DNA of 41,625 nucleotides from Armatimonadota bacterium. Its GTDB lineage: Bacteria > Bacteroidota > Ignavibacteria > OLB7. The notes under the pieces were generated by a model. The model did no database searches. It saw nothing but the letters and a program-made list of their open reading frames with translations, and was not told where the DNA came from. Within the stretch, counting starts at the first letter, position 1; each line of letters starts with the position of its first letter. This document shows positions 1 to 41,625 of the stretch, piece by piece. The stretch is from the NCBI GenBank assembly GCA_020850315.1, contig JADZEY010000111.1, positions 1 to 41,625 on the forward strand. The letters are read 5' to 3'. The position numbers and the translations under genes are program-made.

Positions 1-120
1 GGATTTCGGGAGGCGATACTGAAATTTTTCAAGAACATCAAGAACTACAAAGCAGAGTTAGAGAGTCTTCTAACCCTGAATTTCCATATTCCCCGAATTT
101 CGCAAACTCAAAGCACGTGA
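1..120 (+). CDS. Transposase C-terminus (partial, IS630-like)
   Basis: Frame 1 is open from the window edge to a TGA at 118-120, giving 39 residues that include KNYKAELESLLTLNFHI. This resembles my recollection of IS630-family transposase C-termini, where an FF..N...Y...L.SLLT.NFH pattern closes the protein. The catalytic DDE residues would lie upstream, outside the window. The last codons run into the terminal inverted repeat, as is common in compact insertion sequences. With so short a fragment, the family call leans on the TIR and the TA target as much as on the protein. Confidence 0.6.
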   Translation, partial: GFREAILKFFKNIKNYKAELESLLTLNFHIPRISQTQST

Positions 121-537
121 GTATAACGCAGCTTGGATATCTTCTATATCCTCATCAGTGCTCAAGATGTATCCGTAGAATTCCTGATGATTTACTGGTA
201 TCAACACCAGAAGATCGCCCATTACCTTAGCCGTTAGGAATGGGAAATCTTTTCCGAACCTTGTCAATCGGTACTCGCTACGGGTGCCTATCCCATACCA
301 CGTCACACATGATTGCGTTACTCTTCCATCCTGCCAAATTATTCTTGGCCAGCTCTTTTTATTTTCTCCTTTTACGGGCGGGTGAGGTGAATAGAGATGG
401 AATCCTAATTTCGGAAGGAAGAAGCCAGATTGATGCCCTCCAGTTAAGCCTACATCATTTCGTGAAATAAATTTCAAAATTGCTTTACCGGCAGCTAAAG
501 CATCTGCAATGGCTCGCTCTCCTATAGGTGATGCCAT
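70..537 (-). pseudogene. EcoRII-like restriction endonuclease N-terminal domain, interrupted by IS
   Basis: The 155-residue reading frame matches the N-terminal effector-DNA-binding domain of EcoRII-type restriction enzymes: TGGHQSGFFLPK at about 32-43 and RSEYRLTRFG at about 86-95 resemble the GGHQ and RITRWG segments of EcoRII. EcoRII is about 400 residues with a C-terminal catalytic domain, which is missing here. Native sequence runs to about L138. The last 17 residues, from Tyr139, are encoded by the IS end (positions 70-125) and stop at a TAG inside it. The gene is therefore split by the insertion, and the catalytic half is predicted beyond the IS, left of the window. It lies 66 bp downstream of a matching methyltransferase in the same direction. 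The remaining fragment should not cut DNA; it might still bind sites or be inert. Confidence 0.78.
96..125. repeat. IS terminal inverted repeat (30 bp)
   Basis: The sequence begins AATTTCGC and ends GTGAGTATA. Reversed, it matches the left terminal repeat of the MITE at 41476-41505 in 27 of 30 positions. The outer TATA contains the TA target. The repeat also supplies the last codons of the transposase on the plus strand and, on the minus strand, an artificial tail for the interrupted restriction gene. Confidence 0.8.
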
Positions 538-603: not shown

Positions 604-1818
604 TTATAAGACACTTTCTATGCTTGGGTTACGCCCCTTGACAAGGCAGCGTGATCCGCAATTTGTGATATGCCACCGTAGTGTCTTAACTATCTCTTTA
701 GCTATAGCTTCAGCAACAGGGGGAACCACCGCATTCCCAAATTGTTTATACGCCTGCGTGTCAGATACTACAATTTCACGACTATCTTCAAAACCCATAA
801 TGCGTGCGGCTTCTCTAGGTGTTAATCTACGTGGATTCTTGTGTTTACCTTGAGGGATCAAGATTTCAGATCCATCTTTATAATACCTTGCACTTAACGT
901 GCGTGATACACCATTTAGGTCAGTAAGCCCGAAGCCGAACCCGTTCCCTTTCTCTCGATGACGTTGTGCGTAGTCCTGCAAGTACTTCCACAAATGGTCG
1001 CTTAAGGTGTACTTCTGATCTGGCTCTGATTCCAAAATATCTTTGAATTTAGGTTTTGGCTCCGGTGCTTTTGGAAACTGAAATGGAGGATTATTACCAA
1101 AAATATGCTTATCAAAGCAAACGATAAAAATACGCTCTCGATGTTGCGGTACATAGTCTGCGGCATCAATGACTTTATTAAAGATCACATAGTCTAAATC
1201 TTTCAACGTAGCCGAGATTACCTTATAGGTTCTTCCGCCATCATGCGACAGTAAATTTTTAACGTTTTCAAGCAGCAAGACAGGTGGGCGTTTTATTGCA
1301 GCGATTGTGGCAACATTATAAAATAATGTCCCTTGCGCAGCATCCTGAAAACCATGAGCACGGCCAAGGCTGTTTTTCTTGGATACTCCAGCTATTGAAA
1401 ATGGTTGGCACGGGAAGCCAGCAGCTAATAGATCATGATCGGGAATTGATGCTGGGTCAATTGCCCGTATATCCCCATGAGGTAGCTCACCAAACCATGC
1501 CTTATATGTTTTCTGCGAGTATTTATCCCACTCGCAAGAGAACAGGCAGCTTCCTCCAGCACGCTCTAGACCGATACGAAGCCCACCAATTCCTGAAAAC
1601 AAGTCAATGAAAGTGAAGGGCAATGTTGCTTCCGTAGTTGATGGAGGTATGGGATGATCAACATCATCAAATAAAGAGGGTTGCGCTGAATACGAGACTG
1701 CTCGTTCAAGAATCTTCAGTAGAAACTCATTCTGTGTCATCTGTTGCTGATGACGCTCTCGTTCAAGCCAAGAGCGTATTGCAGGAGAGACATTCCGAAT
1801 GAAAAGATTTTCCTTCAT
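604..1818 (-). CDS. DNA (cytosine-5) methyltransferase, Dcm/M.EcoRII type
   Basis: This 404-residue enzyme transfers a methyl group from SAM to C5 of cytosine. All core motifs are visible: FIDLFSGIGG (70-79, SAM binding), GFPCQPFS with nucleophile Cys137, LENVKN (183-188), QHRERI (225-230) and QFGNAVVPP (359-367). The target-recognition stretch with GNGFGFG (291-297) and SRTLSARYYKDGSEILI (305-321) closely resembles Dcm and M.EcoRII, so CCWGG or CCNGG is the likely site. Residues 1-45 precede the catalytic domain and look like a ribbon-helix-helix DNA-binding unit (FIRNVSPAIRSWLERE then a helical stretch). SsoII-type enzymes have an N-terminal regulatory DNA-binding domain, so self-regulation is plausible. 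The partner endonuclease downstream is IS-disrupted. GC content is near 40% in sampled lines, well below the neighbours, which suggests transfer. Confidence 0.93.
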   Translation of the reverse strand: MKENLFIRNVSPAIRSWLERERHQQQMTQNEFLLKILERAVSYSAQPSLFDDVDHPIPPSTTEATLPFTFIDLFSGIGGLRIGLERAGGSCLFSCEWDKYSQKTYKAWFGELPHGDIRAIDPASIPDHDLLAAGFPCQPFSIAGVSKKNSLGRAHGFQDAAQGTLFYNVATIAAIKRPPVLLLENVKNLLSHDGGRTYKVISATLKDLDYVIFNKVIDAADYVPQHRERIFIVCFDKHIFGNNPPFQFPKAPEPKPKFKDILESEPDQKYTLSDHLWKYLQDYAQRHREKGNGFGFGLTDLNGVSRTLSARYYKDGSEILIPQGKHKNPRRLTPREAARIMGFEDSREIVVSDTQAYKQFGNAVVPPVAEAIAKEIVKTLRWHITNCGSRCLVKGRNPSIESVL

Positions 1819-38290: not shown

Positions 38291-41236
38291 ATGAATACAA
38301 CATCGTTATTTCGCCGGATGGCCGCGCTTGTGGGCGCAGCATTGTTGGGGGCATTGCCAGCCGCAGCGCAATCCCCCGCAGGGCAACCCGGGCCAACACC
38401 AATGGCACCGATTTATGCACGCTACATTGGAGTGGATAAGCTGTGGGGAGGAACGTACAAACTGGATGGGAAAGGGGATACGGTAGGATTGTTCGAGTTT
38501 CAGAACTACCCGCAGCTGCTGCATCCCGAGCTTCAGCATATGGTGTCGCGGGCGTTTGCGCCAACAATGCCCGCCGAGCAGAAACCGGACGTTCACCCAA
38601 CACAGGTGATGGGGGTGCTAACGGGGAAAGGGGTTAATGCCATGCGAAAAGGATGCGTCAACCAAAGCACCATTGATATGTACGCCACCGACGGGTCGCC
38701 CGCGCAGTTTATCCAACAAGCGGGGAAACGGAACTGGCAGATCAGCAACCACTCCTACGGCATCAACCGTGGCTGGGTCCAGACACGCCTTCCCAGCAAG
38801 GCGTTGGTGTGGGTCTGGAACGGCACGCTGGACGGATCGCCGAACACAAAAGACCGTGAGGACCCGCACTTTGGACACTACGATAAGTTCGCCCGCCAAA
38901 TGGACTCGGTGATGTACGCCCGGCCAACACAAATCCCCGTTGTGGCCGCTGGCAACCAACGTGGGATTGCCCCGGCAGGCGATACGGCATATGCGTTCAT
39001 CCTTGCTGGCACGGAGTTCAGCAGCAACACTGGCGATATGCCGCATCCCGCAAACGGGGGAGCCGGCGGATGGGATGTGTTGGCCAGCATCGGGCTTGCA
39101 AAAAATGCCATTGTTGTTGGGGCCGTTGACTCCACCAACAAACTATGGGCCCACAGCAACACTGGCCCCACCGACGATGGGCGGATCAAACCCGACGTGG
39201 TGGCACTTGGTGTGGATGTTCCCCTTTCGGGGAAGGTTGGAAACTTGCTTAGCTACACAACCGCTTCCGGCACCTCCTACGCGGCCCCGGCTGTCAGCGG
39301 TGCGTTGCTCCAGCTGCGGGAATACTGGCGGAAGTTCAATCCCACAGCTCCGTTCACCGCAGCCACCGCGCGCGGGTTGCTGATCCACACCGCCCGCGAC
39401 ATTGATAACATCGGTCCCGACTACCGCACAGGCTGGGGAAAAGTTGATGCGCAAGCTGCCGCCGATCTGATTCAGTTGAACTCAACAAACAACGGCTTCT
39501 CCATCCGGCAAGCAACGCTGAAGCAAGGGGAGAGCTACGAGTTCTACATCAAATCCTACACCAACGGACCTGTTCGCGGGACTATCGCCTGGAACGACCC
39601 GCCCGGGATTGTGATGACCGGACCAAGCGGCCGCATCACCTTGAACAACCGAACCCCAACGCTGATAAACGATCTGGATATCCGGATGTATGAGGTGCTG
39701 AACAACGGGAAAACCGCGTTGAACAAAGTCTATCACCCATTCACCTTGGACCCAACCAAGCCAGCCGAGGAAGCCAACTACGCCGACAATGTTGTTGATA
39801 ATGTTGAGCAGATCTATTTCAAGGCTGTGAACACCTACCTTCCTGGGCAGTTCAGCTTTGTGTACAAAGTGGTTATCAAGCACAAGGGGACGTTAAGCGG
39901 TGGGAAGCAAGATTTCGCACTGTTCATGAGTGGTGCATCGGAGGTGCTGCTGGCACCACAAGAAGTGAAAGTTGCCACCAACGGAATTGCCCCAAAAGGT
40001 GGCGCAAGCCTTGCCGCCACCAGCGCGTTTGTGACCTGGAACGCAGCCCCCGGCGCCACCAACTACGACGTTCAGTACCGCACAATCGGCAGCCAGCAGT
40101 GGACGGCAATCAACAACGTTTCCAAAACGGAGGCGAAGCTGGATAACCTTCAGGCGGCCACCTACCAGGTGCAGGTGCGGGCGCGGCATGGGGCAGTGGT
40201 TAGCCCCTGGACCAGCGTGGTGCAATTCTACGGAAGCACACCAGTGAAACCGTCCGAGGTGTGGATCACACAACAGACCACCACCAGCGGAGTTGTGAAC
40301 TGGACTGCCGTAAACGGCGCAACCCAATACGAAGTGCAGTGGGCGCGGATTGCTGGCGACAACACAGTGCTGGGGGGATGGAAAAAGAAAGTGGTGAACG
40401 GCACCTCCACTACGCTAAGCAGTCTCTATCCCGACCAATACTACGCCGTGTACGTCCGCACCAAATACGCCAACAACTTGCTAAGCGATTACAGCGACGT
40501 GCAAGCCTTCTGGACCCTAAGCGATTGCAGCAGCTACGAACCGAACAACACCCCACCCAACGCCCGAAAAATCCGCACGGGGGATTACGCCGATGGGATG
40601 CTCTGCAAAGGAGATAAGGAAGATTGGTTCCTGATCTACAACCCCAGCGGCTTCAAGAATTTGCAGGTGACATTTTACGAGCACTCCAAGCCGTTCAAGC
40701 TGACCATCTACCGCCAGCCGATCAACGGCGGAACGGTTAGCGCGGTGCCGAACACCACAATCACCAACAACGGCACACAAAGCGTGAAGGTGAACAATGC
40801 TGACTTCGCCAACTACAACTACTACGTGCAGGTGTGGGTCAACGACCCGAACGTCACCTACAGCGACAGTGAGCCTTTTACCATCATTGCCACCACCAAA
40901 GCAACACCGTACCAAGCTAACGGCGATGCAGTGCCAACCCCAATGGCAAAACCAAGTATCGAGGAATCGAGGGAAGCTGCGGCTGGGGCTATCCAACTCT
41001 ATCCAAACCCCGCCAACAGCAGCACTACCATTGGCTTCCGTGGCGTTCCTTCGGGAAGCAATGTTCGGTTGGTGGTGTATGATGCCAGGGGCAGGGTGGC
41101 CTACTCCATTGATGGAATTGTTTCCCCGAACAACAGCATAGTTCTGCCAACCGAAGGGCTGCCAACCGGAGCCTACATGGTGGAAGCAATCGCCGACAAC
41201 AAGCGGCTAACCAAACGGCTGATGGTGGTGCGGTAA
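38291..41236 (+). CDS. Secreted S8 (subtilisin-like) protease with FN3, PPC and T9SS domains
   Basis: A 981-residue protein: signal peptide (about 1-27), S8 domain (about 35-395), beta-sandwich (about 400-555), two FN3 repeats (about 560-745), a pre-peptidase C-terminal (PPC) domain (EPNNTPPNARKI, GDKEDWFLIYNPSG) and a T9SS sorting domain (from about 905) ending GAYMVEAIADNKRLTKRLMV. Catalytic His102 (HPTQVMG) and Ser329 (GTSYAAPAVSG) and the oxyanion Asn222 (VAAGNQRG) are visible. At the usual VxDxG position the sequence reads VGLFEFQN, with Glu69 in place of Asp. That could be a glutamate variant, or the true Asp may lie elsewhere. It may be co-transcribed with the FN3 gene 48 bp upstream. 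Confidence 0.87.
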   Translation: MNTTSLFRRMAALVGAALLGALPAAAQSPAGQPGPTPMAPIYARYIGVDKLWGGTYKLDGKGDTVGLFEFQNYPQLLHPELQHMVSRAFAPTMPAEQKPDVHPTQVMGVLTGKGVNAMRKGCVNQSTIDMYATDGSPAQFIQQAGKRNWQISNHSYGINRGWVQTRLPSKALVWVWNGTLDGSPNTKDREDPHFGHYDKFARQMDSVMYARPTQIPVVAAGNQRGIAPAGDTAYAFILAGTEFSSNTGDMPHPANGGAGGWDVLASIGLAKNAIVVGAVDSTNKLWAHSNTGPTDDGRIKPDVVALGVDVPLSGKVGNLLSYTTASGTSYAAPAVSGALLQLREYWRKFNPTAPFTAATARGLLIHTARDIDNIGPDYRTGWGKVDAQAAADLIQLNSTNNGFSIRQATLKQGESYEFYIKSYTNGPVRGTIAWNDPPGIVMTGPSGRITLNNRTPTLINDLDIRMYEVLNNGKTALNKVYHPFTLDPTKPAEEANYADNVVDNVEQIYFKAVNTYLPGQFSFVYKVVIKHKGTLSGGKQDFALFMSGASEVLLAPQEVKVATNGIAPKGGASLAATSAFVTWNAAPGATNYDVQYRTIGSQQWTAINNVSKTEAKLDNLQAATYQVQVRARHGAVVSPWTSVVQFYGSTPVKPSEVWITQQTTTSGVVNWTAVNGATQYEVQWARIAGDNTVLGGWKKKVVNGTSTTLSSLYPDQYYAVYVRTKYANNLLSDYSDVQAFWTLSDCSSYEPNNTPPNARKIRTGDYADGMLCKGDKEDWFLIYNPSGFKNLQVTFYEHSKPFKLTIYRQPINGGTVSAVPNTTITNNGTQSVKVNNADFANYNYYVQVWVNDPNVTYSDSEPFTIIATTKATPYQANGDAVPTPMAKPSIEESREAAAGAIQLYPNPANSSTTIGFRGVPSGSNVRLVVYDARGRVAYSIDGIVSPNNSIVLPTEGLPTGAYMVEAIADNKRLTKRLMVVR

Positions 41237-41331: not shown

Positions 41332-41475
41332 GTGGGGGGAATGATTGTTTTTGGCGGATGATGATGCATGGAGTAACGTGGTTTGCGAGAAACCTACGTG
41401 ATCTGTGATGGAGAGTAGGAACCGCTACCTGTTATCGGGAGAAGTGAGTTGGAGCAATTTTTAGCCTACCGAAAT

Positions 41476-41601
41476 TATACTCGCGTGCTTTCAGTTTACG
41501 AAATTGTCACCCTGTTTACCCCGATTTGATCGGGGCGAAGACGAGGCCTATACAGGGCCTGACAAGAATAGAATTTCGCAATCTCAACACACGCGAGTAT
41601 A
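41476..41601. mobile_element. 126-bp MITE of IS630 type
   Basis: The element has 30-bp terminal inverted repeats (41476-41505 and 41572-41601; 25 of 30 positions match), each ending in TATA at the outer edge, consistent with a TA target duplication. Its left repeat matches the terminal repeat of the IS at 96-125 in 27 of 30 positions, so that IS or a relative probably moves it. The 66-bp core has no open frame of note and folds: CCCTGT pairs with ACAGGG, and CCCCGAT with ATCGGGG around TTG. It lies in noncoding sequence 240 bp after the S8 gene. Confidence 0.82.
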
Positions 41602-41625
41602 GCCATGCAATACATAATGATAATA

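Follow-up and report, generated by a model that had tools for sequence, protein, structure and literature searches.

Is the short inverted-repeat element near the right edge of this contig a MITE, and which transposase could have moved it? The window analysed is the whole of contig 111 (41,625 nucleotides), one of 138 contigs in an assembly of 4.24 Mb. Among the nearest named relatives of a protein encoded in the window, Chlorobiota MAGs predominate, and one carries the label Bacteroidetes. The preferred reading, held with a probability of about 0.93, is that the element is a non-coding passenger in which two IS630-family ends enclose an unrelated palindromic core, inserted at TA and most likely moved by a multicopy insertion sequence (IS) resident in the same genome.

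Structure of the element and of the partner IS

Two 30-bp inverted repeats with a 66-bp spacer had been described by the first-pass annotation, and both were located exactly there (Table 1), the left arm beginning and the right arm ending with TATA as had been noted for the outer edges. The left arm reads TATACTCGCGTGCTTTCAGTTTACGAAATT and the reverse complement of the right arm reads TATACTCGCGTGTGTTGAGATTGCGAAATT; the two arms are identical at 25 of 30 positions. The match claimed between the left arm and the IS end at 96–125 was reproduced when the reverse complement of that end was used, and every pairing of an IS terminal inverted repeat (TIR) with a MITE TIR, at both IS ends, gave 24–28 identical positions of 30. 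When the window was searched with the TIR pattern (three mismatches or fewer), three sites were returned, namely both MITE arms and the IS end, with none expected in shuffled window sequence. With a length of 126 bp, 30-bp TIRs and, in the ORF list of the window, no internal open reading frame reaching 80 aa, the element is of the size and type of a MITE (less than about 600 bp, non-coding, with TIRs). By analogy with the sister copies, its net insertion would amount to 124 bp, one duplicated TA being counted.

Table 1. Coordinates of the MITE and of the IS end within the window.
Feature	Position	Strand	Basis
MITE, 126 bp, TATA to TATA	41476..41601	+	copy search and arm mapping
Left terminal inverted repeat, flanking TA included	41476..41505	+	27/30 vs IS right end, 25/30 vs IS left end
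Right terminal inverted repeat, flanking TA included	41572..41601	-	26/30 vs IS right end (96–125), 24/30 vs IS left end
22-bp block TGTTTACCCCGATTTGATCGGG, short hairpin inside	41513..41534	+	long subtype only; missing from 102–103-bp subtype
Right end of IS assigned to the IS630 family	1..125	+	1–117 = last 39 aa of transposase; TIR 96–125

At the opposite edge, where an IS had been proposed, an IS630-type transposase ORF is indeed present with its C-terminal part; since the contig begins within the IS, the window contains no more than the final 125 bp of it. The right end of the IS was found on at least 17 contigs of this genome, its frame closing with residues like KYYPTKEGFREAILKFFKNIKNYKAELESLLTLNFHIPRISQSQGT (contig 17), and the left end, TATACTCGAGTGCTTTCAGATTGCGAAAAC, on at least 12. 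TATA is present at the IS ends of all contigs examined, left and right ends being read on separate, unpaired contigs. The left end extends furthest on contig 79, where 503 bp provide 149 N-terminal residues, of which residues 28–148 match the NCBIfam IS630 transposase model NF033545 (E 2e-18; the match is that of a partial protein and hence below the whole-protein cut-off). The winged-HTH domains Pfam HTH_33 and HTH_29 were detected above cut-off in the same N-terminus, and the Pfam DDE_3 profile gave no match in the assembly, the middle of the IS lying outside the assembled contigs. Judged by its N-terminal part, its ends and its TA sites, the IS is assigned to the IS630 family (Tc1/mariner-like). 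No close relative covering the transposase in full was found among the genome contigs searched; weak matches were obtained in two other genomes when 391 class genomes were searched, and plasmid matches showed 26–34% identity. The claim that a non-autonomous element and a candidate mobilising transposase are paired in one genome was thus borne out, by an IS with at least 17 copies and matching ends on both sides.

Several genes hit by these elements were observed in passing. An EcoRII-type restriction gene (window 70–537, minus strand; EcoRII-N profile, E 3.7e-19) is cut by the IS after about 138 residues and adjoins a C5 methyltransferase gene (604–1818, minus strand), which is open over 404 aa; none of the 12 IS left-end contigs was recognised as carrying the C-terminal portion of the EcoRII-type gene. 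A further copy of the same IS lies inside a TdeIII-type restriction endonuclease gene on contig 64 (Pfam RE_TdeIII, E 1.3e-49), so that two restriction genes have been struck by one IS. The gene family MGCGCNDPINSWYDWAHQ..., of unknown function and without a Pfam match (contigs 132, 97, 27, 17 and 10), occupies six places in the genome, five of which lie beside or beneath an IS or MITE insertion.

Copies, target sites and the probable mover

When the genome was searched with the 126-bp sequence, the result was far from a single copy lacking any IS with matching TIRs: 12 complete copies were found, together with three partial or decayed ones (contigs 138, 57 and 44). Four complete copies form a long subtype (126 bp on contigs 111, 70 and 5; 125 bp on contig 95) and eight a short subtype of 102–103 bp (contigs 25, 132, 20, 90, 89, 124, 114 and 76), the main difference being the 22-bp core block. 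The complete copies have different flanks. Contigs 70 and 5 carry identical elements, from which the window copy is set apart by a single base, at 41498; copies one base apart at different sites point to recent spread. Outside this genome, the MITE was not found in four family members, phages or plasmids, nor in the 391 class genomes, for which two candidates were scored per genome, so that weak relatives could escape.

TA duplications and empty sites in relatives had been named as the mark of mobility. This was confirmed for the sister copies on contigs 132, 124 and 89, all of the short type, which have TA...TA flanks and empty counterparts in which one TA (or TG) stands in place of the element and the duplicated TA; for the window copy it was confirmed at the left boundary only. 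The copy on contig 132 interrupts a gene whose paralogues in the congener G004 and in this genome are uninterrupted, the junction reading TA or TG; that on contig 124 interrupts a gene intact in G004, and that on contig 89 is missing from the matching site in G004. Removal of the element plus one TA leaves one open reading frame through the sites on contigs 132, 124 and 90. A reciprocal case is provided by a different MITE of 116 bp (ends TATACTC...GAGTATA), which in G004 lies a short distance downstream from the ORF 38291–41236 orthologue; the window is empty there, at about 41370–41385 (GTAACGTGGTTTGCG). The left flank of the window MITE is homologous to G004 up to 41476, where the homology stops, and the right flank (24 bp) gave neither alignment nor synteny with G004. 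The empty sites of the short-type copies thus support mobility of the MITE by clean TA insertion indirectly. The family is dispersed in multiple copies, has its TIRs in common with the resident IS, and its sister copies were inserted at TA.

For ISY100, of the IS630 family, the transposase is the only protein required, also for excision, and DNA that retains just 30 bp from each of the two ends is moved by it to TA sites (PMC2170065). Since 30 bp per end are enough for ISY100, a MITE with 30-bp IS630-type ends should be a substrate. By analogy with the ISY100 biochemistry, a cut-and-paste mechanism is presumed, with the transposase of the resident IS as the probable mover: it would most likely bind the MITE TIRs through its N-terminal HTH domains and then cut the MITE out, and the excised element would be inserted at a TA dinucleotide with duplication of the TA.

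The TIRs of the MITE and the IS are not identical, so that the actual mobiliser could be another IS that differs slightly from the resident one. The copies might even be fossils of a past burst driven by a lost IS630 relative, the ends of the resident IS being alike by common ancestry; the imperfect TIR identity, the decayed or partial copies and the presence, in this genome, of a second IS with an 87% identical transposase end would fit such a history. It is nevertheless considered unlikely: the copies on contigs 111, 70 and 5 are 99–100% identical at different sites, and the pairs on contigs 132/20 and 90/89 are identical or near-identical, which again indicates recent spread. The second IS has TATACTGAAACCAGATTGG at its end and is a far poorer match to the MITE ends. 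Movement by the resident IS is therefore preferred.

Core of the element

The core had been described as a nested hairpin, and two hairpins are present (CCCCGAT-TTG-ATCGGGG and AGGCC...GGCCT). Folding as RNA and as DNA, which the first-pass annotation had recommended, supported a real hairpin core with a stability far above that of shuffles (whole element: z -6.8 for RNA and -7.0 for DNA; core only: z -3.35). In a consensus fold over the MITE copies, the TIR stem was kept, the core hairpins were not, and covariation was almost absent. The strong predicted folds, together with the location past the 3' end of a gene (ORF 38291–41236), could suggest a functional structured RNA or a bidirectional terminator that resembles a MITE and is retained for its hairpins, but the TIR stem is the sole part conserved between copies, an observation that speaks against a role of the core as RNA, a search of Rfam with the MITE gave no match, and some copies break coding genes; this identity, judged highly improbable, was dropped. 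An origin of the MITE by internal deletion of the IS was dropped as well, because BLAST of its core against the known portion of the IS (its first 503 bp and last 146 bp) found no match. Since the core is unrelated to these parts, simple deletion from the visible IS does not account for the MITE.

It is a doubtful, though conceivable, proposal that MITE cores are modular in this genus, the widely dispersed palindrome GTCATTCCCGCGAAAGCGGGAATC and a 22-bp hairpin block at its apex being shared by the cores of several otherwise different repeats (contigs 51, 15, 90 and 72, and the window type). If true, one family would have acquired or swapped cores with another, and selection might have favoured the cores as hairpins.

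Two separate observations concern these sequences. The 22-bp block of the long MITE was found on contigs 51, 15, 90 (9291) and 72, each time at the equivalent position behind GTCATTCC or GTCATTCG, within host repeats without these TIRs and with varying loops. The palindrome GTCATTCCCGCGAAAGCGGGAATC of the G004 MITE core has exact matches in 92 stretches of viral contigs; the viral copies looked at mostly stand alone, with CA or CAG as the next bases.

Contig ends and related elements

The suspicion that the family breaks assemblies proved justified: most IS ends found are contig ends, and contigs 70 and 5 end exactly at the MITE end. Contig termini typically lie 123–127 bp into the IS, the exceptions being one right end of 146 bp and left ends of up to 503 bp. 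A terminal 127-mer is common to contigs 70 and 5, and likewise to contigs 114 and 76, as would be expected from de Bruijn assembly with k = 127. The last 127 bases of the window start one base past the SNP at 41498, so that a second place should share the rest of the MITE and the 24-bp right flank; no second contig with both was found in the assembly. The contig ends (window 41498–41625; contigs 114 and 76) imply a MITE right flank that is common to two copies (24 or 22 bp) and a left flank that is not. This one-sided sharing may reflect a mixture of strains, a larger repeat or copies that have recombined with each other. The IS/MITE pair explains the stopping points of both ends of the window contig.

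The closest published case is the pneumococcal pair of RUP (repeat unit of pneumococcus) and IS630-Spn1; read as a MITE cross-mobilised by an IS630 element, the window element falls into that kind and does not found another. RUP is a non-coding element of 107 bp with IS630-Spn1-like TIRs and TA target sites, described as 108 intergenic copies (PMC2229807). As far as descriptions allow comparison, both are short non-coding elements that carry the TIRs of a resident IS630-family IS and use TA sites, whereas the family described here comprises about 15 copies, at least three of them inside genes, belongs to another phylum and has two size subtypes that differ by the 22-bp core block. The Correia/NEMIS elements of Neisseria are likewise short, TA-flanked inverted-repeat elements, again likened by description, but no IS matching their TIRs is reported in the review (PMC2229807), whereas the window MITE has one. 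The pair resembles IS630/Tc1-mariner elements such as ISY100 in the N-terminal HTH of the IS, the TA duplication at the MITE sister copies and TIRs of about 30 bp that include TA; unlike in ISY100-type elements, the MITE lacks a transposase, and the catalytic part of the partner lies outside the assembly.

Little is added to the general knowledge of MITEs by this ordinary example of known mobile DNA. What it offers is a clean record of an IS630/MITE pair from the Chlorobiota MAGs, a lineage that has received little study, and its insertion sites can be regarded as natural gene disruptions.
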